A program made the position numbers and the translations under genes. Of a stretch of 64,000 bases of DNA, positions 3,998 to 48,400 are shown in pieces (positions within the stretch are counted from its first letter, which is position 1; each line of letters opens with the position of its first letter). Below the pieces are notes generated by a model. That model did not search any database and was not told the origin of the DNA. It saw nothing but the letters and a program-made list of their open reading frames with translations. The DNA comes from a virus, in the IMG/VR virus record IMGVR_UViG_3300025141_012314, positions 1 through 64,000 of that record. One strand, given 5' to 3'.

Positions 3998-6343
3998 ATG
4001 CCCACACTTTTAAAAGAAGGCAGTGCCAACACACACCTTACTCACCTCGAAGAGTTAGTTCTCACGCAAGGTCCAGCCGGCTATAAAATGGCCCGGGCAT
4101 TTCTGTTAGAACTTCTTGAAACCCTAAAGGGGAATTCTAAATCGCATGTGCAAACATCTGTTAAATGGGATGGTGCACCGGCGATGTTTGTTGGTATCAA
4201 CCCCGAGAATGGTAAGTTTTTTGTAGGAACTAAATCAATCTTTAATAAGGTTCCTAAAATTAACTACACTGAAGAGGATATTGTCAGAAACCACGGGCAT
4301 GCGCCCGGGCTTGTTGATAAATTATCGAAAGCATTAAAATATCTCCCTTCCCTTGGGATCAAAAATATTCTGCAGGGTGATTTCATGTTCGATGATGAAA
4401 TGCTCGATGTTGTTCAAATAGATGGAGAACCACACTACCGCTTTAAGCCAAACACGATAGTTTATGCGGTACCGGTTGATTCAGACTTAGGTAGAGAGAT
4501 TGGGCAATCGAAATTTGGTATTGTGTTTCACACTACATATGATAGTCTAGATAGCGGCGCTAGCTTTGGAGCAGATGTAAGCGCGCTGAACCGACCGCCG
4601 GGGATTTGGTTCGATGATGCTTTCTTTACAGATGACACCGGTACAGTAACTCTTACTGCTGGTGAAGAGAAGAGAATTCTTTCTTTAGTTAAAGAGGCTG
4701 ACGCGGTTAATGAAAGTATAGACTATAATAATTTGCCTTCTGCGCTTCTGAATATCTATATTAACAGCGAAATTAAAGGCGGACAGTTTTTGGAGGATCC
4801 AGAACGTTCTTTTGATGGCTTTAAGAACTGGTATTTCGAGCGTTCTGAAAAGAAAATCAGTAAGCTAAAAAGCGAGAAAGGCCGCGGCAAAGCCGAAACA
4901 AAAGCTCTGCAAGATATTCAACTGCTCGATAGCAAAAAAGAAGATATTCTTAATCTCTTTCAGGTATCTCGTCTATTGTTTGAAGCCAAAAACATTTTTA
5001 TTGAGAAATACAACAATGCTGTGTATAATACAAAGCACTTTGTAGATGATGGCTCTGGAGATCTGGTTGCGACGAATCCAGAGGGATATGTAGCAGTAGA
5101 TCATGCGGGTAATGGAGTGAAATTTGTAGATCGTCTGGAATTTAGTCGCGCTAACTTTATGGTAGATAAAACTGCCAAATTTACTGGTGAATCCGTTGAT
5201 CGCCGAAACTTTACTGTTCAAATCTCAAAAAATAAACAAATAACGAAAACTATAGCCGAGTGGTTGACAGAAATTAAGGCCGCAGGGCACAAACACCAGA
5301 AACTCCCACAAATGGTTTATAAGGACGTCTTGGCAGGTACCCCTATCGTAGACATTGTTGTTCAAGAGAACGCCGAGAGAACCATCTACAACGCAGTTAT
5401 GGACTATGCCAACAGTCTAAAGGAACAGTTCGAAGAAGAGCCTCCAGAAGACGAATGGTATAGTGATGAATATGAGACGCTAGGAGATCGCAAGTTTGCA
5501 GATCGTCCGGGTCAGACCATCGCTCTTGTCCCAGGTGCATTTAAGCCACCACACAGAGGGCATGCCGATATGGTACGTCGTTATGCTACCGGTGACGGTG
5601 TGCCAAAGGCGGACAGAACAATTATTTTGATTTCCAACCCTAAAGGCGCACTGAGGAAGCTGCCGCATGACGATTCAGAAGTTAGTGCAGAACATTCCCG
5701 ACGAATTTGGGAAACAGTCTTCTCTGATGTTACAAACCTGCCGGGTGTTGAAATACAAGTTGCAGACTCAGAGATGAGATCGCCAGTAAGCATTGCTTAT
5801 GAATATATTAGTGAAACATCTCCGCTAGATATCAAGGCGGGAGACGATATTATTTTGGGCGCTAGCAGAAAAGATCGCGACTTCATGCGCTGGAAAGGCG
5901 CCTCTGAATATAAAAAGAAGAAGAGAGGGGTTAACGTCTTAGCTGGTGAGGAATACGCTGTAGTGCCTTCTGAGCGCTCTGATAACAAACCTTTTAGCGC
6001 CAGCGACTCGCGGCAGTTGGTCAGCAATTTAGTAACCAACCCAGAAGATGTGGAATCATTACGACAGCTATCTGAGTATATTCCACAAGATAAGATCGAT
6101 GAGTTATTCAATATCCTTGGACAACCATCTCCAGTTTCTACAATAGCACAAGATCCTGTGAATGAAACATCACTTGGGGGTGGCGGACCCGGTGGGGCGC
6201 CGGGGAATGTGACCGGTTACTCAGGCCCTTTGCAATCTGGGTTGGGTAAACCCAAGAAAAAACCCAGAAAGAAAAAGAATGAAAATTTAGTTATCGTGAA
6301 CGAAGTTATGAAACTAATTATGGAAAGAGGTATACAAAGATGA
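3998..6343 (+). CDS. Fusion of ligase-type adenylyltransferase-like domain and HxGH nucleotidyltransferase domain
   Basis: The 781-residue protein has two recognisable parts. In the N-terminal part, K56-W-D-G-A-P matches motif I of the covalent nucleotidyltransferase (DNA/RNA ligase, capping enzyme) superfamily. L125-Q-G-D resembles motif III (usually G-E), N-P-E362-G-Y-V matches motif IV and G-V-K375-F motif V, in the right order. The C-terminal part (about 500-710) contains GAFKPPHRGH with H519 and H522 and FSASDSR (666-672), the two signature motifs of HIGH-type nucleotidyltransferases such as NMN adenylyltransferase. The end is Gly/Pro and Lys-rich, then a helix. A GAGGG site precedes ATG 3998. 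Substrates are unknown. Its place in the head-like block suggests that it is packaged, which is an inference. Confidence 0.8.
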   Translation: MPTLLKEGSANTHLTHLEELVLTQGPAGYKMARAFLLELLETLKGNSKSHVQTSVKWDGAPAMFVGINPENGKFFVGTKSIFNKVPKINYTEEDIVRNHGHAPGLVDKLSKALKYLPSLGIKNILQGDFMFDDEMLDVVQIDGEPHYRFKPNTIVYAVPVDSDLGREIGQSKFGIVFHTTYDSLDSGASFGADVSALNRPPGIWFDDAFFTDDTGTVTLTAGEEKRILSLVKEADAVNESIDYNNLPSALLNIYINSEIKGGQFLEDPERSFDGFKNWYFERSEKKISKLKSEKGRGKAETKALQDIQLLDSKKEDILNLFQVSRLLFEAKNIFIEKYNNAVYNTKHFVDDGSGDLVATNPEGYVAVDHAGNGVKFVDRLEFSRANFMVDKTAKFTGESVDRRNFTVQISKNKQITKTIAEWLTEIKAAGHKHQKLPQMVYKDVLAGTPIVDIVVQENAERTIYNAVMDYANSLKEQFEEEPPEDEWYSDEYETLGDRKFADRPGQTIALVPGAFKPPHRGHADMVRRYATGDGVPKADRTIILISNPKGALRKLPHDDSEVSAEHSRRIWETVFSDVTNLPGVEIQVADSEMRSPVSIAYEYISETSPLDIKAGDDIILGASRKDRDFMRWKGASEYKKKKRGVNVLAGEEYAVVPSERSDNKPFSASDSRQLVSNLVTNPEDVESLRQLSEYIPQDKIDELFNILGQPSPVSTIAQDPVNETSLGGGGPGGAPGNVTGYSGPLQSGLGKPKKKPRKKKNENLVIVNEVMKLIMERGIQR

Positions 6344-7171: not shown

Positions 7172-7540
7172 GTGCGGAAAAAAGCAAAAAAGAATTTGAC
7201 AACTCAGAATAAGAGTGTTATTATAAAATTGAAAGCAAAAAACCTTATTAATGATAGTTTATTAGTTAGTATTAATAATTTAACATTAGAAGACTTAATC
7301 TCAATTAAATTAGAACTCTCAGCTAACCATATTAATAATAGACCATATGGATTTAGCTTGTGGTCGAAGGCTTCATATATAATGAAGGACTCTTTAATAA
7401 GGTTTGCACTCTCAACAACTAACTCGAAGAAAAGCGCAGCCAGGTTCCTAGGCATTACAGATAGTGAATTATATCAAGCTATCAAAAGGTATGAAGTGGC
7501 TGAACTATTAAAGGATAATGATAATGTGGAAGCTTTATAA
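7172..7540 (+). CDS. Fis-type helix-turn-helix DNA-binding protein
   Basis: The start is GTG 7172, preceded at short distance by AGGTGAG. The 122-residue protein has a basic N-terminus and a C-terminal helix-turn-helix: AARFLGITDSELYQAIKRY (near residues 89-107) aligns by eye with the C-terminal DNA-binding helices of Fis and NtrC-type activators, where the pattern is A-A-x-x-L-G-I-x-x-x-x-L-Y-x-x-I/L-K-x-Y. A role as a small transcription factor or nucleoid-type protein is likely. The gene is AT-rich and contains a strong sigma70-type promoter within its first 55 bases, so it may be mostly 5' context for the genes behind it. Confidence 0.7.
   Translation: MRKKAKKNLTTQNKSVIIKLKAKNLINDSLLVSINNLTLEDLISIKLELSANHINNRPYGFSLWSKASYIMKDSLIRFALSTTNSKKSAARFLGITDSELYQAIKRYEVAELLKDNDNVEAL
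7196..7224 (+). promoter_or_regulatory. Sigma70-type promoter inside the Fis-like gene
   Basis: TTGACA at 7196-7201 is separated by exactly 17 bases from TATTAT at 7219-7224. This near-consensus pair would transcribe the rest of the Fis-like gene, the small gene at 7524 and the tmRNA at 7736, letting host polymerase make tmRNA without phage factors. Confidence 0.6.
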
Positions 7541-7745
7541 ATACAACGGGCGCTATATTATGGGAGATTTAATCAGCTCTCATAAAACTGAATCTGCTGC
7601 CATGAAAAAAGCCAAGAAAGAACTCACATTTAAACATACCGAAAAAGAAAAGAAATCAACCGGACTCTATATCTGGCTAGATGATCAAAATCATGCACCA
7701 GTTGGTGTTATATTTCAAAAGAAGAAAGATAAAAAGGGGGTGTAA
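7524..7745 (+). CDS. Small basic hypothetical protein overlapping the tmRNA 5' end
   Basis: The preferred start is ATG 7524 (MWKLYKYNGRYIMGD), eight bases after an AAGGA site; ATG 7518 is in the same frame but too close to it. The 73-residue product is Lys-rich, with a WKLYKYNGRY opening, a central helix and a strand pair (LYIWLDDQNHAPVGVIFQ). It resembles other small T4-like phage proteins with this alpha/beta make-up, function unknown. Its last ten bases, including the stop, lie inside the acceptor stem of the tmRNA, so RNase processing of the tmRNA would destroy this message. Confidence 0.65.
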   Translation: MWKLYKYNGRYIMGDLISSHKTESAAMKKAKKELTFKHTEKEKKSTGLYIWLDDQNHAPVGVIFQKKKDKKGV

Positions 7746-8079
7746 GGGTTTCGACAGGGTAAAAAAGAAGAATAGTGCAAGTAGTCAAACGTACCAGTAG
7801 ACTTTAAATGCAGATACAAAACAATAATTGCTAATAATAATAACAATTTCGAATCTGTCCGCCTAGCGGCTTAATCGGGAGGTTGCTTAGAGCCTTCTTT
7901 TCAATCTAAGCAAACAACAGACAAGTTGTAAAAATCAAAACCATCTAATGCAACAGGACGGTAAGCAATAGATTATAACCGTATAGCTTTTCAGTTTGTG
8001 ACTAAAACTGAATAAACTTGTGAATGACTTGAATTGTGATTTATCTTGGACGCCAGTTCGACTCTGGCCACCTCCACCA
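7736..8079 (+). ncRNA. ssrA: Transfer-messenger RNA (tmRNA)
   Basis: The 344-nt gene has a complete tRNA-like domain. The 5' GGGGGUG (7736-7742) pairs with CACCUCC (8069-8075), followed by A and an encoded CCA at 8077-8079. The T-arm is GCCAG/CUGGC around the loop TTCGACT (8052-8068). The conserved GGTTTCGACAGG-like segment follows the 5' strand (7746-7759). An open tag frame starts about 95 nt from the 5' end, as in bacterial tmRNAs. tmRNA with SmpB rescues stalled ribosomes by trans-translation and tags the nascent chain for proteolysis. No SmpB gene is in the window, so the host protein would be used. Phage-borne tmRNAs are known but uncommon. Confidence 0.93.
7830..7874 (+). other. tmRNA tag reading frame
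   Basis: From a resume codon GCT at 7830 the frame reads ANNNNNFESVRLAA and ends with TAA at 7872-7874. The start at Ala, the length of 14 residues and the terminal L-A-A, the signal read by ClpX-type proteases, all fit a proteolysis tag. The run of five Asn is unusual. The exact resume codon is inferred from the distance to the 5' end and from the alanine. Confidence 0.75.
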
Positions 8080-13898: not shown

Positions 13899-13973
13899 GC
13901 CCCTATAGTTTATCTGGTAAAACAGCGGATTTGTAACCCGCAGTGCTTTGTTCGAGTCGAGGTGGGGGCACCA
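13899..13973 (+). tRNA. tRNA-Thr (anticodon TGT), CCA encoded
   Basis: Acceptor strands GCCCCTA (13899-13905) and TGGGGGC pair throughout with one G-T. The D-stem is GTTT/AAAC, the anticodon loop reads TTTGTAA with anticodon TGT, and the T-arm is CTTTG/CGAGG around TTCGAGT. The sequence ends A-CCA at 13973. The closing pair of the anticodon stem is an A-C mismatch and the T-stem has two G-T pairs, which is common in phage tRNAs. It reads ACA threonine codons and is the only tRNA found in the window. Confidence 0.9.
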
Positions 13974-14021: not shown

Positions 14022-14048
14022 CGATAGTACCATTAAATGCAGGATTAC

Positions 14049-15404
14049 ATGAGCAAAAAGAAGAATTATGTATTAGACACTAGCGTCTATTTAACTGACG
14101 CAGAAGCAATATACAAGTTTAGCAATCATGATATTTTTATACCCCTTAAGGTATTAGAAGAAATTGATAAGCATAAAAAGCGCCAAGATTCTGTCGGAGT
14201 CAATGCGCGCCGCATAATCCGTATCCTCGACGAAATCCGTCGCCGCGGCAATCTTAATACAGGGGTGAGAATTGAAAAAGGAAAAGGATTGGTAACAGTG
14301 ATGTCTTATTCCTGTGTAACTTCTTCTATCTCTTTTCCTCCGGATTTGGATCTCCGAGTGCCCGATCACGTTATAATCGCCACTGCCCAAGCGATCATAA
14401 CTAAAGAACATCTCAAAGAATCAAAAAGAGCACCCAGAGAGACAATTTTAGTCTCCCGGGACATCAACATGAGGGTTATTTGTGATTCGATTGGAATAAA
14501 GTCAGAAGAATACAATACAGATAAAGCGCTTGAAAGCTCTGCAGAGTTGTATCAGGGCTTCGCAGAACATCTTGTCGATGACGCTGTAATCGATCGGTTC
14601 TACAATGATGAAGATGTGTTTATTTCTGATAGTGAAATGGAAACCGAGTGGTATCCAAACCAATATGTTATGATGGTTTCTAATGCTAATCCCAAAAAGA
14701 CTGCTTTGGCACGTTTTAGAGATATTCACCGCCCGCTTCGGAAAGTGATCCACGGGGCTATACCAGACTGGAAAATCAAGTCTCGCAACAAAGAACAAGC
14801 TTTCGCCATCGATCTTTTATTAAATCCGGACGTAAAGGTCGTCTCTCTTGTCGGAATGGCCGGGAGTGGTAAGACCCTTCTTGCCATAGCAGCCGGACTA
14901 CAACAGACCATAGGTCTCCGGGAAAACCCATATACACGTATGATTGTCTCCCGCCCTGTCCAACCGCTGGGGAAGGACATAGGATTCCTTCCGGGCACAG
15001 TGGATGAGAAAATGCTTCCATGGCTTATGCCGATTCAAGATAATCTTAAGTTCTTGATGGGAGATAAAGCGTCGGTTGAGATGTATATGGAGAAAGGCAA
15101 GATTGAAATCGAAGCTCTTACATATATTCGTGGCCGGTCGATTGCAAATGCGTTCATGATTATTGACGAAGCTCAAAACCTTACCATGCACGAGATTAAA
15201 ACAATTATCACACGCGTCGGAGACGGGACCAAGGTGATACTTACAGGCGATATTGAACAGATTGACAATATTTATGTCAATGAAACATCAAATGGGCTCG
15301 CTCATGCAGTGGAAAAGTTTAAAGAGTTTCCAATTGCAGGGCATGTTACATTTAAAAAGGGCGAAAGAAGTGAAGTTGCAACGATGGCAGCTAAGGTTTT
15401 ATAG
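14049..15404 (+). CDS. phoH: PIN-domain plus PhoH-type ATPase
   Basis: I choose ATG 14049 because AGGA lies just before it; ATG 14037 would add four residues. The N-terminal part (about 1-150) is a PIN RNase domain (YVLDTSVYL with the first acidic residue, then VLEEIDKH). The C-terminal part (about 225-451) is the PhoH ATPase with Walker A G269-M-A-G-S-G-K-T and Walker B MIID373-E374-AQN. PIN-PhoH proteins are thought to be ATP-driven RNA-processing enzymes, and phoH genes are widespread in marine phages. The protein is 451 residues, a normal length for this two-domain form. Confidence 0.92.
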   Translation: MSKKKNYVLDTSVYLTDAEAIYKFSNHDIFIPLKVLEEIDKHKKRQDSVGVNARRIIRILDEIRRRGNLNTGVRIEKGKGLVTVMSYSCVTSSISFPPDLDLRVPDHVIIATAQAIITKEHLKESKRAPRETILVSRDINMRVICDSIGIKSEEYNTDKALESSAELYQGFAEHLVDDAVIDRFYNDEDVFISDSEMETEWYPNQYVMMVSNANPKKTALARFRDIHRPLRKVIHGAIPDWKIKSRNKEQAFAIDLLLNPDVKVVSLVGMAGSGKTLLAIAAGLQQTIGLRENPYTRMIVSRPVQPLGKDIGFLPGTVDEKMLPWLMPIQDNLKFLMGDKASVEMYMEKGKIEIEALTYIRGRSIANAFMIIDEAQNLTMHEIKTIITRVGDGTKVILTGDIEQIDNIYVNETSNGLAHAVEKFKEFPIAGHVTFKKGERSEVATMAAKVL

Positions 15405-17255: not shown

Positions 17256-18539
17256 ATGAAGAAAAAGAAAGTTTTGGTGCTCTCCGATCACCCGCTTTCG
17301 CCATCTGGGGTTGGAACCCAAACCCGGTATATGATCGAGGCGCTCCTTAAAACAGGGCGCTATCAATTTGTTTGTTTAGGCGGAGCAGTAAAACACAGAG
17401 AATACCAGATGCAAAAGGTTGATCCCTATGGGGAAGACTGGCGAATATTCCCTGTCGATGGATATGGAAACCCCGAAATCATACGCTCGATACTCCAGAA
17501 AGAAAGACCGGATGTATTGTGGTTTATGACAGATCCTCGTTTTTATACGTGGCTGTGGGAAATCGAGAACGAAGTGAGAATCAACGTCCCAATGGTTTAT
17601 TATCATGTATGGGATAACAACCCGGCACCGTTCTATAATGCAAACTACTACAAATCTAATGATAAGGTAGTTTGTATATCAAAGGTTACAAAGGGTATTC
17701 TGGATACAGTTGCTCCAGACGTAGACAGCGAGTATCTTCCACATGCGGTAGACTCGGAGTCTTTCTATAAGTTCAAAACAGATGAAGATCTTGCAAGAAC
17801 CGCTGTTATTCGTGAACGCGTCGTTGGAGCCTCAACAGAGTTCGCCAACCCGGAGAAGAAAATCTTTTTCTGGAATAATAGAAATGCACGTAGAAAACAG
17901 TCTGGAACACTTATTTGGTGGTTTAAAGAGTTCTTAGATGAAGTGGGTCATGACAAAGCTACTCTGCTTATGCATACTGATGCGCGAGATCCTCACGGAC
18001 AAGACTTGCCTCATATCTTGAACCACCTTAATATAACAGACGGACAGGTTTTGCTTTCAACTGATAAGGTTTCTCCACAAGATCTCGCAGCAATGTACAA
18101 CGCTGCGCATTTTACCATTAATATCTCAGATGCAGAAGGATTTGGACTAGGAACGTTAGAGTCTTTAGCATGCGGAACTCCTATTATTGTTAATATGACA
18201 GGAGGCTTGCAAGAGCAGGTTACCGATGGAAAGAACTGGTTTGGCTACGGTTTAGAACCTTCCTCGAAGGCGATTATTGGTTCCCTACAAGTGCCATATA
18301 TCTACGAGGATCGTATCACCCAGAAAGCTTTCACCAACACCCTCAAAAAGGCTCTGAACATCGCACCAAAGACTTACAAGAAGATGTCGATACAAGGTAG
18401 AGAACATGTTCGTGCAAACTATAACTTTGACGATTATGAGAAAAACTGGGTTAAGATTATGGATGATGTTGTTGAAACATACGGATCATGGGAAGAGAGA
18501 AAACAATATAAACGCTGGCATTTATTGGAGGTAGCGTAA
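17256..18539 (+). CDS. Glycosyltransferase, GT4 (group 1) family
   Basis: The 427-residue protein has the N-terminal GT-B donor-loop opening SDHPLSPSGVGTQTRYM and the C-terminal E-x7-E motif, E294-GFGLGTL-E302, followed by ACGTPII. These define a retaining GT4-type transferase that uses a nucleotide-sugar donor. It is the first gene of the glycan island, has a GAGGA site, and ends in a TAATG overlap with a second GT4. The acceptor and sugar are unknown. Confidence 0.9.
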   Translation: MKKKKVLVLSDHPLSPSGVGTQTRYMIEALLKTGRYQFVCLGGAVKHREYQMQKVDPYGEDWRIFPVDGYGNPEIIRSILQKERPDVLWFMTDPRFYTWLWEIENEVRINVPMVYYHVWDNNPAPFYNANYYKSNDKVVCISKVTKGILDTVAPDVDSEYLPHAVDSESFYKFKTDEDLARTAVIRERVVGASTEFANPEKKIFFWNNRNARRKQSGTLIWWFKEFLDEVGHDKATLLMHTDARDPHGQDLPHILNHLNITDGQVLLSTDKVSPQDLAAMYNAAHFTINISDAEGFGLGTLESLACGTPIIVNMTGGLQEQVTDGKNWFGYGLEPSSKAIIGSLQVPYIYEDRITQKAFTNTLKKALNIAPKTYKKMSIQGREHVRANYNFDDYEKNWVKIMDDVVETYGSWEERKQYKRWHLLEVA

Positions 18540-19801
18540 TGAAAAAGAAAGTATTCTTTAGAGGACCCCTTCTAACAAGATCGGGATACGGAGAACAGGC
18601 TAGATTCGCAATGCGGGCATTAGCTTCCCGACCAGATCTTTTCGATATTTATATTCAGCCTTTAGAATGGGGGAAAACCTCGTGGACCAATGAGGATACC
18701 CCTGAGAGGGCTTGGATTGATAGAACCATAGAAAAGACCCTGCAATACATCCAGCAAAACGGACAGTTTGATATATCGTTCCAAGTTACAATTCCAAATG
18801 AATGGGACAAGCCAGCACCGATTAATATTGGATACACAGCCGGGATTGAGACTACGAAAACATCACATCAATGGATCCAAAAGGGCAATGAGATGACTGG
18901 TATTATTGTAGTTTCCAACCATGCGAAAAATACTTTTTTAGCTACGGACTACCAACTGTCCAATCAACAAACAAACCAAACAATGATTCTCAAGTTAGAA
19001 ACTCCAATTGAGACAGTTAACTACCCAGCAAAGAAGTTCCAGGAACTTCCAGATGTTGATTTAGACTTAGAATACGAACACAATTTCCTAGTAGCAGCCC
19101 AATTGGGCCCTCGCAAAAACGTGCCAAACACTATTAAATGGTTTGTTGAAGAGTTTCGAGACGAAGAAATAGGGCTTGTTGTAAAGTGTTACGCTGCAAA
19201 GAACTGTCTGCTCGACCGCGAGATGACAATGCAAAATCTTAGACAGCTAGTCTCCCAATTGGGAGAAAAGAAGTGTAAAGTATATCTTCTGCACGGTGAC
19301 ATGTCCGACGAAGAAATGCATTCCCTCCAAACACATCCTAAGATTTCCGCATTCTTATCCCTAGCTCATGGCGAGGGCTTTGGTTTACCGATTTTTGAAG
19401 CAGCCTATTCTGGTACCCCTGTCATTGCAACCGGTTGGTCTGGTCAGCTGGACTTTCTTGTTGACGAAGAGGGCAAATCAAACTTTTACAACGTAAATTT
19501 CGATCTCAACCAAGTACAGCCAGCAGTTGTTTGGGATGGTGTCTTAATCGCCGACTCAATGTGGGCTTATCCTCGCGAACAGTCTGCAAAGAAGTGTATG
19601 CGCGACTGTTATAATGATATTATAAATCAAACAGAAGGAAGTGTTGCAACATCTGCCGACACCTTTGCTGAGTCCGTGCAGGAGAGATTTTCGCAGGAAA
19701 AACAATATAAAGCCATGGTGGACGCCGTTCTCAAGTTCTCTGGGAGCCCAGAAGAAGAACAATGGAGAGATGTGTTGGACCAAGTGGTAGAGTATGATTA
19801 G
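18539..19801 (+). CDS. Glycosyltransferase, GT4 (group 1) family
   Basis: This 420-residue GT-B protein opens FRGPLLTRSGYGEQARFAMR, the same type of glycine-rich loop as in the preceding gene, and has the C-terminal E279-GFGLPIF-E287 motif with GTPVIAT. It is related to but clearly diverged from its neighbour. The tandem pair and a GGAGG site before the coupled ATG suggest sequential addition of two sugars to one glycan. Confidence 0.9.
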   Translation: MKKKVFFRGPLLTRSGYGEQARFAMRALASRPDLFDIYIQPLEWGKTSWTNEDTPERAWIDRTIEKTLQYIQQNGQFDISFQVTIPNEWDKPAPINIGYTAGIETTKTSHQWIQKGNEMTGIIVVSNHAKNTFLATDYQLSNQQTNQTMILKLETPIETVNYPAKKFQELPDVDLDLEYEHNFLVAAQLGPRKNVPNTIKWFVEEFRDEEIGLVVKCYAAKNCLLDREMTMQNLRQLVSQLGEKKCKVYLLHGDMSDEEMHSLQTHPKISAFLSLAHGEGFGLPIFEAAYSGTPVIATGWSGQLDFLVDEEGKSNFYNVNFDLNQVQPAVVWDGVLIADSMWAYPREQSAKKCMRDCYNDIINQTEGSVATSADTFAESVQERFSQEKQYKAMVDAVLKFSGSPEEEQWRDVLDQVVEYD

Positions 19802-21461
19802 CAAAGAAGTAATCTTTATATCCGACTTCTTTATCAATGAGGTAATGGGTGGCGCTGAGTTTTGTAATGATGCTCTGATGAAACTTTTAAGTCCGGATGT
19901 AAAGATTGATAGTTTAAAGTCTGACCGTGCAACTGTTCAACTTGTTGAGAATAATCTTGATAAGTTCTTCATTGTCGCGAACTTCTTTCAACTTGCTGAG
20001 AATGTAAAAGTAGCTTTAGCAAAAACAACATATGTTATTTTAGAGCACGATCACAAATATGTCCGCTCAAATAATCCTTCCTTATACAAAGATTTTCTTG
20101 CGCCAGAAAGACAAATACAAAATAAGGCATTTTATAAGAATGCGTTAGCGGTACTGTGCCAGTCTAGGAAGCATGCCGGAGTCGTCCAACGCAACCTCCT
20201 AATAAACAATATTGTAAATTTAGGCGGCAACATATGGAATGAGGAACAACTCGCCACTTTAGAGAATAATATGGGCGCGAAGAAAATAATTAAGTATGGA
20301 GTTCTCCAGTCCAATAACCGCAACAAAGGCATGCCCGCAGCGATCGCATATTGTCAGAGAAAAGGATTAGACTTTAAGCTAATTCAAGGCAAGCCATTTC
20401 CTGAGTTTATTAGAGATATCTCCCAAGTGGAAACATTAGTATTCTTTCCGCAATGGTTAGAGACATATAATCGTTTTTCTATTGAATCAAGGATCCTGGG
20501 CTGTAAACTTATAACAAACAGCCTGATAGGCGCCACCAGCGAAGACTACTTTAAGCTGAAGGGCAACGAACTTTTAGATTTTATAAGACAAAACAATCAG
20601 AATCTTCGTCAGCGCTGGATTAAACTAATCAACAATAGTGAAATAAAATACTTCCCGCCCTTAGACCTGCCAAAGATTACGGTATTCTGTCCCCTATATG
20701 CCGGCGAACAATATATTGAAGGCTTTCTGAAGTCTATGCAAGAACAGACAATCTTTGATCAGTGCGAACTGATCATTATTGATGCCAACTCTCCCGAAAA
20801 CGAGAGTCAATACATCGAAGAGTTTATGAAAGAGCATGAAAATGTAATTTACAAGCGATTAGATCATAGGGCGTCAGTAATGGAAACTGAAAATATGGCA
20901 ATCCACATGGCAACGGGTGAGTTCTTTGCTCAAGCATGCGTTGATGACAGACATCATAGAGAATATCTTGAGATTATGGCAAAACATCTCCACTATCACG
21001 AGGATATAGATCTTGTTTATACAGACTGTCTACAGACTACAAAGCCAAATGAGACCGTAGAGACAAACTCTTCGTCTGGAGCCTATTACGAGCATTCGCG
21101 TAATGAGTTTTCTCCGGAGAACATGATCAAGTGTTTGCCGGGACCAATGCCTATGTGGAAGCTGAGTGTGCACGAAAAATGTGGATATTTTGATGAAGGT
21201 TTATCGTATGCTGGAGATTGGGACATTTTTCTAAGAATGGTAGCGTCAGGTTCTAAATTTAAGAAAATTGATATTCCGTTAGGGTTATATTACTTTAATT
21301 CTGAGGGATTATCAACCTCAACAGAAAATCAAATCCCTAGGGGAAAAGAAGAGGCGGAAGTCTTCTTTAAGCATAAAAACGTATTCGGTGAAGCGAACTA
21401 CAATAAATATAAAAATTACTTCTCACAATTTATAAGGAATGAAAATGAGTCAACAACGTAA
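19794..21461 (+). CDS. Two-part glycosyltransferase: N-terminal GT-like domain plus C-terminal GT2 domain
   Basis: The 555-residue protein has an N-terminal region (about 1-285) with FINEVMGGAEFCNDALM, an opening typical of GT-B glycosyltransferases, but without an obvious E-x7-E motif. A C-terminal GT-A domain of family 2 begins near residue 293 (ITVFCPLYAGEQYIEGFL) with the metal-binding CVDDR near residue 383. The GT2 part looks complete and the first part possibly reduced. A bifunctional enzyme or a scaffold plus one active domain are both possible. It overlaps its neighbours on both sides. Confidence 0.85.
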   Translation: MISKEVIFISDFFINEVMGGAEFCNDALMKLLSPDVKIDSLKSDRATVQLVENNLDKFFIVANFFQLAENVKVALAKTTYVILEHDHKYVRSNNPSLYKDFLAPERQIQNKAFYKNALAVLCQSRKHAGVVQRNLLINNIVNLGGNIWNEEQLATLENNMGAKKIIKYGVLQSNNRNKGMPAAIAYCQRKGLDFKLIQGKPFPEFIRDISQVETLVFFPQWLETYNRFSIESRILGCKLITNSLIGATSEDYFKLKGNELLDFIRQNNQNLRQRWIKLINNSEIKYFPPLDLPKITVFCPLYAGEQYIEGFLKSMQEQTIFDQCELIIIDANSPENESQYIEEFMKEHENVIYKRLDHRASVMETENMAIHMATGEFFAQACVDDRHHREYLEIMAKHLHYHEDIDLVYTDCLQTTKPNETVETNSSSGAYYEHSRNEFSPENMIKCLPGPMPMWKLSVHEKCGYFDEGLSYAGDWDIFLRMVASGSKFKKIDIPLGLYYFNSEGLSTSTENQIPRGKEEAEVFFKHKNVFGEANYNKYKNYFSQFIRNENESTT

Positions 21462-21858
21462 ATACCTTCCTACACTCTCCGAATTGATCGATCGCCTGTC
21501 GATTGCACAACTCAAAGAAGTGTTTATCCCCGAACACAAAGCTGAATATGCCCAGGAAATCTCAGATATCTGCCATGATATCCAGTTGATTCTCGATTCT
21601 AGTTCCGGCAAAATGAACGCGGAAACTGTAAGAGCGATAATTGTCCTCTCTCAGATGAACTTGCACATTTGGCACAATGAGTCTCAAGTTAGAGCCGGCT
21701 CAGGTTCTGGCAATCTAGCGCTAACTCACGGACTCAACGGTCTTCGGAATGTGGCAAAAAACAGGATTCAAGAGATTAACGGCGGCAGAAAAGATTATAA
21801 GATTGATTGTTTAGCAGCCGACTTTAAAGATTGGGAAATCAGCTGGGATAATGACTGA
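21445..21858 (+). CDS. Hypothetical protein in glycan island (137 aa)
   Basis: I start at ATG 21445, seven bases after AAGGA; ATG 21439 is too close to that site. The product is largely helical (LPTLSELIDRLSIAQLKEVF, then EISDICHDIQLIL and RAIIVLSQMNLHIWHNESQV). Short helical proteins with a TVSELIDRLSI-like opening accompany sugar-modification genes in phages and bacteria, but no activity is known to me. Genes overlap on both sides. Confidence 0.7.
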   Translation: MSQQRKYLPTLSELIDRLSIAQLKEVFIPEHKAEYAQEISDICHDIQLILDSSSGKMNAETVRAIIVLSQMNLHIWHNESQVRAGSGSGNLALTHGLNGLRNVAKNRIQEINGGRKDYKIDCLAADFKDWEISWDND

Positions 21859-22942
21859 GGTTTATGACTTTGATGTTGTCATTATTGGAGCCGGACTTGT
21901 AGGATTAGCTGTAGCTAGAGAATTATCCTCGGTATATGATAATATCATATTAGTTGAAAAAGAGTCAAGTTTCGGACAGCACGTTTCGAGTCATAATAGC
22001 GAAGTTATCCACTCCGGCATATATTATCCCAAGGGCGCCCTTAAAACTAAACTATGTGTTGAGGGCAATAAACTGCTTTATAAATTTGCACAAAAATATG
22101 ATATACCGCATAAGAAATGTGGAAAATTGATTGTGGCTACCTGCCCAGAAGAAGAACCTATTCTTGATCAACTTTATGAGCAGGGGAAGAAAAACGCGGT
22201 AGTAGGTATGTCAATGATTGGCAAATCAGAGATCGCCAAAATAGAGCCAGCCGTTAAAGCAACAAAGGCACTCCACGTAGAATCTACAGGAATAATAGAC
22301 AGCCATTCAGTTATGCAGCAGCTTGAGGCGTCAGCCTTAAATGCGGGGGTGGTCACTCTGTATAATACTGAAATAACATCGATTGATAAAAAAAATAACA
22401 TTTATAAGTTGACAACTGATACAAATAATGATATTATACAAACAAGAATAGTAATTAACGCTGCAGGGCTCTGGAGCGACACTATTGCGGCAATGGTGGG
22501 AATAAATGATTATAAGATCCATTGGTGTAAAGGCGAGTATTATAAAACCAATAAACACAGGAATATGAAAAAGCTGATTTATCCGGTACCGGATCCTCAA
22601 GGCAAGTATTTGGGAATTCATACGGTACTAGATTTAAATGGCGGACTTCTTTTCGGACCAAATGCATATTATGTAGACAATCTCTCTTATGATATGAAAG
22701 AGAATAACAAGCCCCAGTTTTATGAGGCGATTAATCGATATTTAGATATCGGTTGGTGCGAGATAGAACCAGCGTTAACTGGCATAAGACCAAAACTTCA
22801 AGCTCCCGGCGAGAAATTTAGAGATTTTGTAATAGAAAATAACCAAAAACATGAGAATTTTATCAACATAGTAGGAATAGAATCACCGGGCTTGACAGCC
22901 TGTCTTGCTATTGCTAAACATACAAGGGGAATTATTAGATGA
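21851..22942 (+). CDS. FAD-dependent oxidoreductase, L-2-hydroxyglutarate oxidase (LhgO)-like
   Basis: The N-terminal Rossmann motif G13-A-G15-L-V-G18 and the stretch SSHNSEVIHSGIYYPKGALK are characteristic of the DAO/LhgO family, which oxidises 2-hydroxy acids with FAD. The C-terminus has GIESPGLTACLAIAK, the usual second FAD-contact segment. At 363 residues it is a little shorter than bacterial LhgO. In this island it more likely oxidises a hydroxy-acid or sugar-acid precursor than 2-hydroxyglutarate, but that is inference. Overlaps with both neighbours indicate one operon. Confidence 0.82.
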   Translation: MTEVYDFDVVIIGAGLVGLAVARELSSVYDNIILVEKESSFGQHVSSHNSEVIHSGIYYPKGALKTKLCVEGNKLLYKFAQKYDIPHKKCGKLIVATCPEEEPILDQLYEQGKKNAVVGMSMIGKSEIAKIEPAVKATKALHVESTGIIDSHSVMQQLEASALNAGVVTLYNTEITSIDKKNNIYKLTTDTNNDIIQTRIVINAAGLWSDTIAAMVGINDYKIHWCKGEYYKTNKHRNMKKLIYPVPDPQGKYLGIHTVLDLNGGLLFGPNAYYVDNLSYDMKENNKPQFYEAINRYLDIGWCEIEPALTGIRPKLQAPGEKFRDFVIENNQKHENFINIVGIESPGLTACLAIAKHTRGIIR

Positions 22943-23877
22943 AAAAAGAACACGTATTAGTCACAGGAGGCGCCGGCTATATAGGCTCTGAACTGATCGA
23001 TTACTTACTCCACGCAGGATATACTGTAACAGCGCTCGATAACTTAATGTATGATCCGACGTCGTTGCTGCGCTATACCAACAATCCAGATTTTAGCTTC
23101 ATCAAGGGGGACGTTAGAAACGTTCTATTGATGGAACGCCTTATGGCAGAAGCAGACATTATTATACCTTTGGCGGCATTGGTTGGCTTTCCTTTGTGCG
23201 ATGAGGACCCCCGTGCTGCCCAAGAGATTAACCATGACGTTAATACTTGGATAGCAAAAAACAAAAAGCCAAATCAAAAGGTTATCTACCCCTGCACTAA
23301 CTCTGGCTACGGCGTTAGTGTCGATGGTTCTGTCTGTACAGAAGAATCACCCCTTAATCCTATTTCGCTTTACGGGCGAACTAAAGTGGCTGCAGAGAAG
23401 GAATATCAGGATGTTGATAACTGCGTAACATTTAGACTGGCTACTGTTTTTGGCCCGGGCTCACGCATGCGCTCTGACCTCCTTGTAAACAACTTTGTTC
23501 TTAAGACATTGCGCGAGAGAGTTTTGGTGTTGTATGAATGTGAGTTCATGCGCAACTATGTGCATCTTCATGATGTATGTCGCGGCTTTATGTTTGTGCT
23601 CCGTAACTGGGAAGATTGTAAAAATGAAACATATAATCTTGGAAATGACGAACTGAATATGAACAAGCTCCAGCTAGCCGAAAAGATTCAAGAGCATCTT
23701 CCTCTAGAGATAATCCGCGCAGAGATTAACAGCGATCCTGATACCCGCGACTACATTGTTAGTAGCGATAAGATTTATAATAAAGGCTACAAGTGCGCAT
23801 ATGATCTCGATGATGGAATCAGACAACTCATAACTGCATATGCTATTATAGAAAGCCCTTGGTACGCAAACTATTAA
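22939..23877 (+). CDS. NAD-dependent epimerase/dehydratase (extended SDR)
   Basis: The 312-residue enzyme has the Rossmann motif TGGAGYIGSE near residues 9-18 and the catalytic Y145-x-x-x-K149 (YGRTKVAAEKEY). These define extended short-chain dehydrogenases that act on nucleotide-sugars (4-epimerases, 4,6-dehydratases, decarboxylases). The C-terminal substrate-binding part is normal in length. The exact reaction cannot be told; dehydratase or epimerase on an NDP-sugar fits the cluster. It is coupled by ATGA to the oxidoreductase gene. Confidence 0.9.
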   Translation: MKKEHVLVTGGAGYIGSELIDYLLHAGYTVTALDNLMYDPTSLLRYTNNPDFSFIKGDVRNVLLMERLMAEADIIIPLAALVGFPLCDEDPRAAQEINHDVNTWIAKNKKPNQKVIYPCTNSGYGVSVDGSVCTEESPLNPISLYGRTKVAAEKEYQDVDNCVTFRLATVFGPGSRMRSDLLVNNFVLKTLRERVLVLYECEFMRNYVHLHDVCRGFMFVLRNWEDCKNETYNLGNDELNMNKLQLAEKIQEHLPLEIIRAEINSDPDTRDYIVSSDKIYNKGYKCAYDLDDGIRQLITAYAIIESPWYANY

Positions 23878-23878
23878 T

Positions 23879-25387
23879 ATGAAACAGATAGATGTATTAT
23901 TCGTCCATCCCAATGGCGCCCAGATAATTTATCAAGAGCTGAGTAAAAACTATTCAGCGATTGAACCGCCTATATGGGCAGCCCTGCTGGCAAAAAATGC
24001 CCTCACAAAAGGATTTACTACAAACATTCTTGATTGTGAAGCAGAAAGAATAGACGCATCAGAATCAGCAACCCGGGTAAAAGAGCAGAATCCTCGTTTG
24101 GTGGCGATAGTGGTATATGGTCAACAGCCTTCAGCATCAACTCAGAATATGATTGGCGCACGAATGTTGATAGAACAACTGAACGCAATCGCTCCAGAAC
24201 TTAAGACGATCCTCATCGGATTACACCCCTCAGCCGTCGCTCGACACACGCTGGAAACCGAAGGCTCTGATTTTGTTTGCCAAGGTGAAGGTCCTTACAC
24301 TGTTCAAAAGCTCTTAGAAATCGATATGGACGATGCTGGCGCTCTAAGCACCGTCCCTGGGCTTTGGTACCGAGTTGATGGTAAGGCCCTTTGCACACGC
24401 CCTGCGCCGATTATACCGCAAGAGAAGCTCTCTACGGAGCTACCCGGGATGGCATGGGACTTGCTTCCGATGGATAAGTACCGCACATCTAACTGGCATG
24501 CAATGACAAATGGAGACGACCGTCAGCCGTTCGCTTCTTTGTATACAAGCTTAGGTTGTCCGTTCCGCTGTAGTTTTTGTTGTATTAACGCGCCATTCGG
24601 CAACAATAACTTGGAAAATTGGGACTACGGACGTAATAAGTTTAGATATTGGGAACCAGAATTTATGATTGAAGAGTTTGAAACTCTCCATAAAATGGGA
24701 ATCCGGAATATTAAACTAGCTGATGAAATGTTTGTCTTAAATCAAGACCATTTCATGAAGCTATGCAACTTGATTATTGAGAGAGGTTATGACTTTAACT
24801 TTTGGGCGTACGCTCGTGTAGATACAGTTAAAGAAGAATATCTTGAAACATTAAAGAAAGCCGGCGTTAACTGGCTAGCCTTGGGAATCGAATCGGGAAA
24901 CACTGAAGTTCGAAAGGATGTAACAAAGGGTAAGTTCACAGATGTAAAGATTCAGGATTTAGTAAAGAAGATCCAAGACGCTGGCATCGACGTCATCGGT
25001 AACTATATCTTTGGGCTCCCCGAGGATACTATCGAGACCATGCAAGATACACTGGACATGGCAATGGAACTCAACTGTGAGTTTGCAAACTTCTATTCAA
25101 CCATGGCTTACCCCGGCTCGAAGTTATATCTCGATGCATTGAGAGAAGGCTGGGAGCTTCCAGAAACATATGTGGGATTCTCACAACATTCATACGAGAC
25201 GCACCCGCTGTCAACTAAACATATATCAGCAGCCGAAGTGTTAGGCTTCAGAGACGAAGCGTTTACAAAATACTACACCAGCGATAGATATTTGGACATG
25301 ATTGAGGAAAAGCGAGGAAAAGCCACGCGCCAGTCTATTGAAGATATGACAAAAATAAAACTTAAAAGAAAACTATTGGGAGATTGA
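23879..25387 (+). CDS. B12-binding-type radical SAM enzyme
   Basis: The 502-residue protein has an N-terminal cobalamin-binding-like Rossmann domain (about 1-150; VVYGQQPSAS, LIGLHPSAV) and a radical SAM core with C227-x3-C231-x2-C234 (CPFRCSFC), which binds a 4Fe-4S cluster and S-adenosylmethionine. Further conserved parts are GIESGNTEVRKDV and GLPEDTIETMQ, typical of class B radical SAM proteins. Such enzymes methylate or rearrange unreactive carbons in sugars, lipids and natural products. In this place it may methylate or rearrange a glycan or its precursor. Confidence 0.88.
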   Translation: MKQIDVLFVHPNGAQIIYQELSKNYSAIEPPIWAALLAKNALTKGFTTNILDCEAERIDASESATRVKEQNPRLVAIVVYGQQPSASTQNMIGARMLIEQLNAIAPELKTILIGLHPSAVARHTLETEGSDFVCQGEGPYTVQKLLEIDMDDAGALSTVPGLWYRVDGKALCTRPAPIIPQEKLSTELPGMAWDLLPMDKYRTSNWHAMTNGDDRQPFASLYTSLGCPFRCSFCCINAPFGNNNLENWDYGRNKFRYWEPEFMIEEFETLHKMGIRNIKLADEMFVLNQDHFMKLCNLIIERGYDFNFWAYARVDTVKEEYLETLKKAGVNWLALGIESGNTEVRKDVTKGKFTDVKIQDLVKKIQDAGIDVIGNYIFGLPEDTIETMQDTLDMAMELNCEFANFYSTMAYPGSKLYLDALREGWELPETYVGFSQHSYETHPLSTKHISAAEVLGFRDEAFTKYYTSDRYLDMIEEKRGKATRQSIEDMTKIKLKRKLLGD

Positions 25388-42479: not shown

Positions 42480-45400
42480 ATGTCTGAATCAAAGTTTATT
42501 AAATGGCAAGATAGAGACAACGATGGGTTAATTGACGTTTGCGAAGATGTTATAGTAGATGTCCAAGAGTCCTGTTCGGTTTGCAAGCCAGATCCATCAG
42601 CAAGCATCCCTAATTGGAAAGATCTCACAATAGATGAACCTTTCTTAAACGGACAAAACTGCACATACCAGATTACGGTAAAGACTTCCCTTACAACTAC
42701 GGGTGCCCCAGAAGGATCTTCTGATCAAGAGCATACTGACGCCCTCACTGCAACTTATGAGCTATACGCAACAGATGCGATTAAATCATTACTGGCAGTT
42801 TACGAGAAAGAGAACTCTGCGGAAACACGAGATTTTGCTAGCAAAGGATTATATGCATCTAACTTTGATCTAGCCCCTTATCCCGGCTCAAGACTCAAAC
42901 TACAATATTCAATTCCAACGATCGTTTTAGATTCGATTGCCGCGAGAACAGATACATCTGATGACGAGGAAGAGGAAGAAACAGAAAACACCGGTGGTGG
43001 CTCAGTAACATATAATACCACAGAAATATATAATAAAGTAATGACCGTCAGAAAGTCCCTATGGTTATATAACAATTATCTTAAGATTTATAGGTTTGTT
43101 GAAAACGGAAACCTATTCTTTGTCGATTCAAATAGATTATTTGAATTGGGCAGCTATGGAGATTCGGGCTTCGGCGATTCTCTTATGGCAGATATCCTGC
43201 CTCAATTAGAGTCCTTCCTTAATACGAAAGATTTTAAGATACCGGGCATCGGCTGGCCTGGCTTTCAAAATGTGGTTGAGAAGTTATCATTCGTATTTGA
43301 TGGTGAAAACAAGTTGACTAAACTTGAGGTTTTCACAGCCGGCTGCGGTGACAATGCTAGAGTTTTTGAAGGCACTCGATTGCGTTCCCTAAATAGCAAA
43401 TCATCTTTTAAAGATCCGACTGCTATGGGTTATTTCATGAATATGGATAAAATGGAACAAGATCTTAAAGCAAGAGTTCCAAAGTACTGGTTAGACTTCA
43501 TCTTAGAATACACATACCCAGTAGTATATTCCCCAATAGAATCAACAAGCACTCTCCCGGGACAAGTAGAGTCTAGATATGAAACATCACAAACCATCAC
43601 AAGCTGTGTCAAAGACGCATTAATATCCGAAGGAAAAGAACTAGGACAAGATCTTCTTGACGAGACTTTCGGAATTGCTGATGCAATAATGTATAAGTTT
43701 CATCGAAACCTATGTTACAAAGACTCGGAGAAATTAGACGAAGAGCTACAAAAACTTGGATTATTTGAGTATGCTGATCCAAACAACCCAGATACTGAAG
43801 AGTTTAGAGAAAATCTATTCGCAGTCGCTCAAGCACGTGCCTATGGGTCTCTAGAGAAAAACGGCGATGGCAGCATATGCGCCATTTTCTCCTCCCGAGA
43901 CAGTAACAAACCAGAGGGTACATCTGCCGACACGCTTGACGATATGTACAACAAGCTCGACAGGATAAAAGCATGCGGTCTATCTTCGATGCTGATGTCT
44001 GCAATTCAATGCCTCTTTAAGGGGATGACGTTAGAGCAGGCACTGTCAAAAGTCACACTAGCCGCCTTAGAAGCAATGGACCCCACAGACCTATCGTCGT
44101 TGTTCATTCTGCTGCCCCCGGACAAACAAGCTCAAATTGAACAGCTTGTAAGAAAAAGACTAGCATCAGGCGATCTATTTTCTGATAATGGTGCCTCTCA
44201 ACAGTTTAGCGATGTCATGGCCGGCAAAGAAGACGCATATATTACTGATTCAAGCCAGCCTGAAGAGTTTGGAGAAGAGGATACTTTTCAAACCCCCGTC
44301 CTTGCCACTGATGATGTAAGCCTCGCTGTAGCTACCGAAAATCTATCAGCTGAAGCCTCTGGAAGAGGGCAAAGCCAGCGACAAGTTCGAACATTAGCAC
44401 AAAAGTTCTCTCTATCCGGACAACTCTCCGGAGGCTTTGGTAATAAATCGGTTGTAGGAGCATATGTACACGCCATAATAGAAGTATATCAGGATAATTA
44501 TCTGGCACTAATCGACTACCTAAACAAGTTCCCGGGCGCCGATATTATCGCGAAAGTTATAGCAACACTAGATTGCCCCGTTCCGCCTTTCTTGGGCGCA
44601 GAAGGCGGACTTGAAATAATCAAAGAAGAAGACCTTCCCTCGTGTTTAAGCATCGACGGGATAACCCTACCAAAACTAAAGAATCCATTTGGATGGTTGC
44701 CAAAACGCCACGATCTACTCGCTGCATTGCAAGCTGCAGCCATTGAGGCGATTAACGAAGCAATTCTGAGAATGATTCAGAACGTTCTCCTTAGAGCTTG
44801 CAAGACTTTGAGCAGCGCTGCATGTAAAACTGTTGAGATAGCAACAGACGTTGCGCAAGCTGCATTCACCGAAGCTACTTTTGGAGACCTTCTTCAAGAA
44901 ACAATTTGCGGTGGTGATGGGGGTGCCCATAGTGATGAAGTTTCAAGTTCGGATCAGGCAGTGATTGACGTTCTCGGCGCCTTGGGTCCCGGCGCAGTAG
45001 CATTAGCGGATGAGCAGCAAGCCTTGAACTTTAGCCACGACCTGTCGATGTCGACCACCCGCACAGAGTTGAGCGAGGCTACGTTGGGCAACCCGTCGGA
45101 CACCCTTTTAGAAATTGTGTTAAACTTAGTCAAATATGAATATCCCGAGTATGACCCGGCCTTTAACAACAAGCAATCGATAGCTGCTTTCTTTAAAAAT
45201 GTTGGAAGTTTGATGCCCATGTCTGCGCGCAAACAGCTAAGAGATCATCTGAACACATTACCAGAGGATGATCAGGTTCCCGCAAACCCTTGCGCATGCG
45301 CAACTCCTGAGCAATTTGAAGATTTTTGTAATCGTCGAACCGCGATTCTCAACGGCAGAGCCAGTCAAGTTCAGATCTCACACATGTGTGAAGTAGAGGA

Positions 45401-48400
45401 CGAACTAGGTCCTCTTGCACAAGCTCTACAATCGGGACCTTTTTCAGATATACCACTTATGGGTTCTCCCGGTTGCGAAGATGGGTTGCTCCCATTCGAG
45501 CCTAAAGAAGCAGTAGCGGTGTCTACTGCGGTCCTCGATACTCATCTTAAACAGATAAAGACAGACTTCACACAAGATATGTTGGGTTCGGGTCCCTTCT
45601 TTGAATCAGATTGGGGATTGCTAAATATGGTTCTCTCTGATACTCTGGGGAACCCTTTAAGTACCCACAATAGGAAGAAGAAGTGGGACATCGGAAGAAA
45701 ACAATACGTTGATTATTATGTAGAATCCCCGGGTTGGTTTTGGAATACCTATGATGACGCTAGCGATCAAAAAGGCGGATACCCAGTTAAGGTAGCCGAA
45801 CGTCTTCAAGAACAGATGGCTGGTTCTGCGGTTGTCTACAACTCTAATAACGAAATCGCACCGGAAACAACTTTTACGAGATCATTTGATTCGCTGAATA
45901 TTGGACAAGGCCGCAACTGGTTCGACACAGACATAAATCTCACAGAACTGCCAGACTTTGGTTATGACATCGACATAGAGGTTGATTGGTCGAATGAAGA
46001 TATTAAGTTAATAAAGAGTGCAAGAAAGAAGAGCCCGGACGTGGTTCTGAAATATTATAATCACTTGGAAGGATACGGCTCCCTTATGGACCAAGATTCC
46101 TCTGTTGATTGGGCAGCTTCCCCAGAAAATCGATGGAACTTCGCATTTGACTTAGAGGTATATACAGCCGAAATGACTGATTCAGATGTTCAAGTATCTG
46201 CCCGAGCCCGTCTTGGTCCGTTTGGTCGAGTTTTTGAATCGGGGTTGTCCGGGCCAAGAAACAGACCCGGAGATATCACAAGAATTAAACTAGTAGAATA
46301 TAACAAAGTTACCGATGAGTCCGCTGCAGCAAACGCTCAGTATAGTGAATCTGGAGGTAGCGAAACAGAAGCTGGTGATACACTCCCTCCAAACATGATC
46401 ACGGATGAAAGCGCCGTTAGTGAAACAGTCGCGTTTGAGTTTGCTGCATCCGACGACTCTTTTAAGGGCGTTAGCTTGCTTAAATACCCCAAACTAGTAG
46501 GAGCTTTCACACACGAAAGTGCTTACGCACCACAGGTAGTTTTGCTGCATGAAATGATGGAGAAAAATGGGCAAGAGATTTCAATCGATGACGTAAAATC
46601 ATTTTATGATAAGAGCACTTCAGAGATGTATAACTCGTTATTGCAAACGGTTTCTGATGACAAAAACAGCGCATGGAAATATGGTGCTGAGTGGGATAAT
46701 ATAACTTCCGCTGATTTGGAATATGTTCTCGATGAGTCGACTGGCTCACCTAAATCTTATTACGATTCTGACTATAAGGAAGAAGACGGAGTATTGGGAA
46801 TAAGTGGGTATCAGTGGCAAATGAAATACAACGGAAGACCGGGACCAAACCGGGTTTATTACCTTCCTCCTGCTAAATTTGGTGGCTCTTATATGAGCCC
46901 TCCCATCTATATCGCGCCGGTACAAAATAAAGGCTGGCTTGGGTTCCTCGATGTATTATTTCCGGAACCTAGTTCATGTAAACCATCCAAGCAGGAGTTG
47001 GTGGACTTTGTTGATATCCAAGAAAACATGTCGAAGACATACCCCTACATCCCAGAAGATGAGAGGCTGAGAGGAAACACAGATTGTGCGCTTGAGCTTC
47101 CATATAATCGAATAATGGAACGCCCAGCAATTTCTGGTATGGAAGCACTTATAACTGCGACAATCAGGATCTATGCGACTACTCACTTTATAAAGACCCT
47201 AGCAACGTTTGCAACTATTAAGCCAGACTTTGATCAGAACTATAGCAATATTTTCGCTGCTTATGTTGTTGAAGATATGGAATATTCATTAAAAGATGCA
47301 CAGACTGCTTTTTGGGAGTTCTTTACTTTATTTAAAGATGAAGAATTCTGGTTTGCCTTCTTGGAACAAAGTGTGCAAGCATATTCCAGAAGGATCGATA
47401 GCGACGAAACTACAGAACCTGCGCCGGCGGTACTAGCTGCCTTTGAGAGGATTAACGATTACCAAGCGAATTACAAATACCCCACACAAAAAGATTTAGA
47501 CAACGCCCCTGATGGCGAAACAGGTTGGACAACTACCCTAAGCAGCTATCGCGAAGAGAAAAACTTTGAGGCTATCCGCGACACAGAAGAGGATGCCAAG
47601 ATTATTCTTGCCGAGATGGTAAAAGAGCAGTTAAATATAATTGGCGAGAGCTTGGTGAATAACTTTGATATCATTGGGGTTGAGCCAGAGATAAACGACT
47701 TGGCACTCTATATGATTGAGCAGTTTGCTGATGGCGGCATAGATCTTAATGTAGATCAAAAAGAAATTGTGGAACAAATGCCCTCCTTCCCAACAGAGGG
47801 TGATGGGCACTACACTAATGGTGGCGAGTTTGTAACAGAAAATGCAGAAGATTATCAAGGTTATTATCACGTTGAAACTGATGCTGACAATAAAATAATT
47901 TATGTGGAAGGAGAATATCCCTCCTCGGAAACAAACAAAGTCTTAAAGCCTATGGCTGACAGAATGGTTGTAGAGATAGGGGATATACAAGATTATGATT
48001 TCACTGCCACCGGCACCAAACCGTTTGTAATAGAAAAGTATACCAGCATTAACGGAGAAAAGTATTCGACGCGCGCCGCCATGGAAATTATAAAGACAAA
48101 CGTTAGTACGTTAAACGTCTCTGATGTTTATCCTGGCACGCTAGATTTGGTAACTGATGATAGCGGAGAAGTTGTGGGACTGCAGGGGGAACTTGGTGTT
48201 CGCCACGGACTCCAGTTTTCAGTATTTATGTCGGGCAAGAAATATCCGGTAGCTGCCACCGAAGTTGATATGTTAGACACCACAATTGAGAACGCGCAAT
48301 CTTTAGACGGCGATACTAAGCTTCTTCTGTGCCTTCTCCGACAGCTGAAATCTGAGGAAGAGTTCAAGCTCCTATATCAATATATCTACGGAGTGCCGAA

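Follow-up and report, generated by a model that had tools for sequence, protein, structure and literature searches.

A one-piece tmRNA gene with its own tag class in a clade of uncultured marine T4-like phages

Results

The tmRNA locus and its phage context

A tmRNA frees ribosomes that have become stuck and marks their unfinished proteins for destruction; such an RNA is encoded at positions 7736-8079 (plus strand) of the DNA analysed here (hereafter the window: 64,000 nucleotides, bases 1-64000 of an 80,341-base IMG/VR virus record). Also encoded in the record are baseplate-wedge proteins (gp6-like and gp25-like), a DNA primase, a PIN-PhoH protein and a DUF6267/phrog_455 protein; the baseplate-wedge, primase and PhoH genes assign it to a contractile-tailed T4-like phage. 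The features of the locus are listed below with the evidence for each.

3998..6343, plus: DUF6267 / phrog_455 protein, upstream syntenic anchor in relatives (homology, synteny)
7518..7745, plus: 75-aa ORF directly upstream of the tmRNA (homologue at the same place in L285)
7736..8079, plus: one-piece tmRNA (ssrA) gene (ARAGORN; full-length Rfam RF00023, 115.4 bits)
7736..7742, plus: acceptor stem, 5' strand, including G3-U70; pairs with 8069-8075 (sequence; covariation)
7756..7781, plus: helix 2, 5' strands (29-relative alignment)
7783..7817, plus: PK1 region, H3 7783-7786/7800-7803 and H4 7791-7795/7813-7817 (pairing in the window)
7830..7874, plus: tag frame, resume codon GCT at 7830, ANNNNNFESVRLAA, stop TAA 7872-7874 (ARAGORN; purifying selection)
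7878..7911, plus: PK2, 7878-7882/7893-7897 and 7885-7891/7905-7911 (covariation)
7915..7928, plus: small hairpin CAAC/GTTG between PK2 and PK3 (29-relative alignment)
7943..7982, plus: PK3, 7943-7951/7965-7973 and 7958-7962/7978-7982 (29-relative alignment)
7991..8011, plus: PK4 hairpin helix, 7991-7996/8006-8011 (29-relative alignment)
8052..8079, plus: T-arm, 3' acceptor strand and encoded ACCA (sequence; T-stem covariation)
13899..13973, plus: tRNA-Thr(TGT), just upstream of phoH (ARAGORN, Rfam)
14037..15404, plus: PIN-PhoH protein, downstream syntenic anchor (homology, synteny)

An earlier note on this DNA had claimed a complete tmRNA gene in a phage genome, and both searches bear it out. 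ARAGORN, run on the window, calls a tmRNA with the tag ANNNNNFESVRLAA at exactly 7736-8079, its coding part being positions 95-139 of the RNA; the covariance model RF00023 matches the same interval over its full length (model 1-374) with 115.4 bits (E = 2.2e-44), above the gathering cut-off of 47 bits, and the two sets of boundaries are identical to the base. The 75-aa ORF upstream is without a Pfam or PHROG match, and its stop overlaps the 5' end of the tmRNA by 10 nt, which suggests that the RNA would be cut from a longer transcript. Promoter and terminator scans gave 20 promoter-like sites versus 6.3 in shuffles, and neither scan singled out the tmRNA.

The DUF6267 protein is found elsewhere mainly in cyanophages, and its closest relatives are those of Pelagibacter phage HTVC008M and of Melnitz. 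The record itself was typed by its gp6/gp25-like proteins and primase; the terminase comparison used a 195-kb relative, whose terminase comes nearest to that of Flavobacterium phage immuto, at 47%, followed by that of Microcystis phage Mel-JY01, at 44%. A covariance search found no full tmRNA in these two isolates, and a DNA-level search of phage isolates gave no match of useful length. Elsewhere in the window, glycosyltransferase genes follow one another at 17256-25387, accompanied by genes for a nucleotide-sugar epimerase, an FAD-dependent oxidoreductase and a B12-binding radical SAM protein; this is probably an island for sugar modification. Two giant ORFs lie near the baseplate genes (42480-48875, 2131 aa, with no Pfam match above cut-off; 52702-63978, 3758 aa).

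The RNA keeps the tmRNA architecture, with a short and imperfect PK1

The tRNA-like parts, encoded CCA, conserved 5' segment and tag frame, which the earlier note had described as intact, are all seen in the sequence. The window tmRNA has the acceptor stem GGGGGTG/CACCTCC, the TTCGAC segment, a T-arm and an encoded ACCA end, and its tRNA-like domain is of the alanine type (G3-U70, T-arm, CCA); 60 of 64 unique relatives have the G3-U70 pair that typifies alanine acceptance. In helix 2, 7756-7762 pairs with 8041-8047, and 7777-7781 with 8017-8021.

Covariation was scored in an alignment of 29 clade members against a hand-written structure that includes the pseudoknots. Two-sided changes occur at 33 of 59 tested pairs (0/500 shuffles); counted by cells they number 157, with shuffles giving 41 (0/500). 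With this structure 93.9% of cells are paired, against 34-46% in slid controls; the window sequence served as the template for the structure, which favours the percentage paired but would not by itself yield two-sided changes. The T-stem is 100% paired, with compensatory changes.

The pseudoknots, on which the earlier note had made its reading depend, stood this comparison in large part. PK2 is the cleanest (both helices 100% paired, compensatory changes in each, six pairs two-sided); PK3 covaries and is mostly 88-97% paired, with lower values at misaligned outer pairs; and PK4, for which the scoring covered the hairpin helix, is 87% paired there and covarying. In the window the weakest pseudoknot is PK1, with four pairs in H3 and one C-A mismatch in H4 (GUACC/GAUAC); at the same place it is uninterrupted in the relatives L117 and L347 (GGTCT/AGACC and GAAAC/GTTTC) and L248 (GTATT/GATAC). 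Judged by its sequence, the window RNA is a complete tmRNA carried by a phage, and it very probably functions.

The tag frame is under purifying selection

The resume codon is followed by a short, stop-terminated frame that evolves under coding constraint. There are 23 distinct tags among 64 unique anchored tmRNAs, and in-frame single-base codon differences are predominantly synonymous, both in 13-codon tags (263 synonymous versus 62 non-synonymous) and in 14-codon tags (581 versus 175); in the other two frames of the region the balance is reversed and non-synonymous differences prevail. The median dN/dS of the tag frame, calculated on protein-anchored loci that replaced an earlier set partly chosen by tag pattern, is 0.23 (13-codon) and 0.17 (14-codon), which indicates purifying selection; the compared sequences are related and their pairs hence not independent, so these statistics give a direction and not an exact probability. 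That the reading frame is conserved argues for a role of tagging in addition to ribosome release.

The same constraint bears on a reading in which the RNA is mainly a decoy or inhibitor that would block or replace host trans-translation, by binding the host's SmpB or by occupying ribosomes that have stalled, with the tag of minor importance. Such a role has been discussed for an RNA of mycobacteriophage DS6A that consists of the tRNA-like domain only (TLD-only; PMC4131195). A resembling 112-nt tmRNA-scoring RNA with little beyond that domain (L440 1501-1612; LR756508.1 414804-414915) occurs in LR756508, a distantly related 484-kb uncultured phage that has a full-length tmRNA match as well (L435), and this short RNA could be a trans-translation inhibitor. 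The window copy, however, keeps the whole mRNA-like part, with its tag frame under coding constraint; because a decoy has no need of a conserved peptide, we consider this explanation improbable.

Across the clade the tags fall into one class, ANNNx[HNY]F[ED]...[RA]LAA. Between tmRNA and phoH, loci L201-L279 frequently hold tRNA-Asn(GTT), often as two genes, and these phages have three to five Asn codons in the tag; in the window, tRNA-Thr is the only tRNA gene of this interval.

The gene is the rule within the clade

Loci were gathered through their proteins, a route that does not favour the RNA (DUF6267 brought in 78 and PhoH 80), and the protein anchors flanking the gene yielded about 89 tmRNA-bearing viral loci, counts that are not all independent because the same contig may occur in both sets. 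In tens of contigs the gene shares its position between the DUF6267 and PhoH genes, usually 1-4 kb downstream of DUF6267. ARAGORN reports a one-piece tmRNA in 53 of the 79 PhoH-anchored loci scanned, and 49 of the 59 with a full 10-kb upstream flank carry one. Within this phage clade a tmRNA is the rule; the roughly 10 of 59 well-covered loci that have no detected tmRNA indicate that the gene is dispensable in some relatives.

This distribution speaks against a captured host gene, acquired by integration or transduction at a bacterial ssrA and passively kept, an origin that might be considered since ssrA is a common integration site (PMC9004378). Phage genes lie on either side of the tmRNA, synteny holds across contigs whose PhoH anchors are down to about 66% identical, and cellular genomes hardly ever carry this tag class (see below), all of which makes passive capture very unlikely. 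An integration-site remnant was likewise rejected, both flanks being phage and the synteny clade-wide.

The earlier remark that phage tmRNAs are rare fails as stated: ARAGORN finds them in 402 of 18,146 phage genomes (2.3%; PMC9004378), two scans for tmRNA in viral contigs each returned at least 120 contigs, and in the present clade the gene is standard. Rarity applies to cultured phages only. Most of the viral-contig tmRNAs found from the 5' pattern are permuted (two-piece) according to ARAGORN, and the permuted tags ANDAQFALAA and ANTSDSAANNIVAFSRSTVAA recur, identical, in many viral contigs. A 217-kb viral contig (G005) has a one-piece tmRNA adjoining a tRNA cluster (L444 1501-1934); its predicted tag, AEDNTSDLLAEAEYIFNNADEFLAGVEEYELAA, runs to 33 residues, which is unusually long.

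Among one-piece genes the tag class is mostly viral

The tag class was sought with the pattern TTCGAC-N60-90-GCN AAY AAY AAY NNN NAY TTY GA, which matches only one-piece genes with this spacing and is hence blind to permuted host genes. It matches at least 120 viral contigs, and ARAGORN confirms a tmRNA in 93 of the 111 pattern-bearing viral loci scanned; about 85,000 cellular genomes in GTDB gave 10 matches, only four of them tmRNAs. Two of these four sit on phage-like contigs within MAGs (one Marinimicrobia and one Flavobacteriales MAG have such contigs), and one of the two, L285, has the 75-aa upstream phage ORF too. On a WOR-3 chromosome, a tag-class tmRNA (ANNNANFDVALAA; L423 10380-10756) is the second besides another full-length match elsewhere, and is possibly of prophage origin. 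Host assignment by MAG co-binning was tried and rejected: a close phage-type PhoH occurs in only 1 of 245 Marinimicrobia genomes, the others being distant (about 36-43%), and with a close PhoH limited to that one MAG no host is claimed.

Discussion

The window RNA resembles the bacterial one-piece tmRNA (RF00023) in its full-length match, tRNA-like domain, helix 2, pseudoknots, GCT resume codon and LAA end, and differs from it in lying on a phage genome and in its Asn-rich tag class and reduced PK1. Phage-borne tmRNAs have been catalogued in mycobacteriophages (Bxz1, Cali, Wildcat and others) and in Bacillus phage G (PMC4131195); those are unrelated phages from isolate surveys, whereas here the gene is clade-wide in uncultured marine myoviruses. 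Methylophage Melnitz (PMC9004378) and HTVC008M are, like the window phage, marine T4-like phages with the DUF6267 protein, but they have a permuted two-piece tmRNA gene of alphaproteobacterial type, in contrast to the one-piece gene of the window; the permuted tmRNA that we found in HTVC008M has the tag ANFNEYALAA. Phage tmRNAs as such being already documented, what is new here is a clade-wide one-piece tmRNA with its own conserved tag class, of which no description was found in a literature search that left most subscription journals outside its range.

The RNA is intact, conserved and covarying, its tag is selected as coding sequence, and the gene order around it is conserved; together these make it probable that the phage tmRNA works in trans-translation during infection, which would place rescue capacity under phage control. 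The tmRNA would probably be transcribed with the neighbouring phage genes, the transcript would be trimmed by host enzymes, and the G3-U70 pair and encoded CCA suggest that the RNA would be charged with alanine. An SmpB profile that matches in 10 of 14 cellular genomes found no SmpB in 13 phage records (some possibly fragments), so the expected partner of the RNA is the SmpB of the host, which would bind it. During infection it would then enter ribosomes stalled on broken mRNAs, add alanine plus ANNNNNFESVRLAA to the unfinished product and release the ribosome. The LAA end is a classical ClpXP/ClpAP signal, by which the fragment would be marked for a host protease and the tagged products probably degraded. 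The gene may be kept in the clade because infection damages mRNA and the phage thereby supplies rescue capacity under its own control. The two benefits that the earlier note had suggested, ribosome recycling during host mRNA decay and redirected proteolysis, are each compatible with the data.

As an extension of trans-translation by the phage RNA, and not an alternative to it, the clade-specific tag may have been selected to give stalled products a fate unlike that conferred by the host tag—through adaptor use, protease or speed—and hence a phage-controlled form of quality-control proteolysis. The clade tags do differ from the cellular tags sampled (for example ADYGYAAAA or GESNYALAA in the Marinimicrobia phylum), which may not be those of the host; the clade tags also retain the C-terminal LAA of ordinary degradation tags, and we put forward an altered fate only as a tentative and rather doubtful addition.

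These findings indicate that a marine phage lineage can keep a tmRNA as a stable and nearly universal gene, one that is no accident of capture. The roughly 50 natural phage tags offer a pattern of constraint that can be tested against host proteases and adaptors, and the reason for which lytic phages come with ribosome rescue of their own is now open to direct test.
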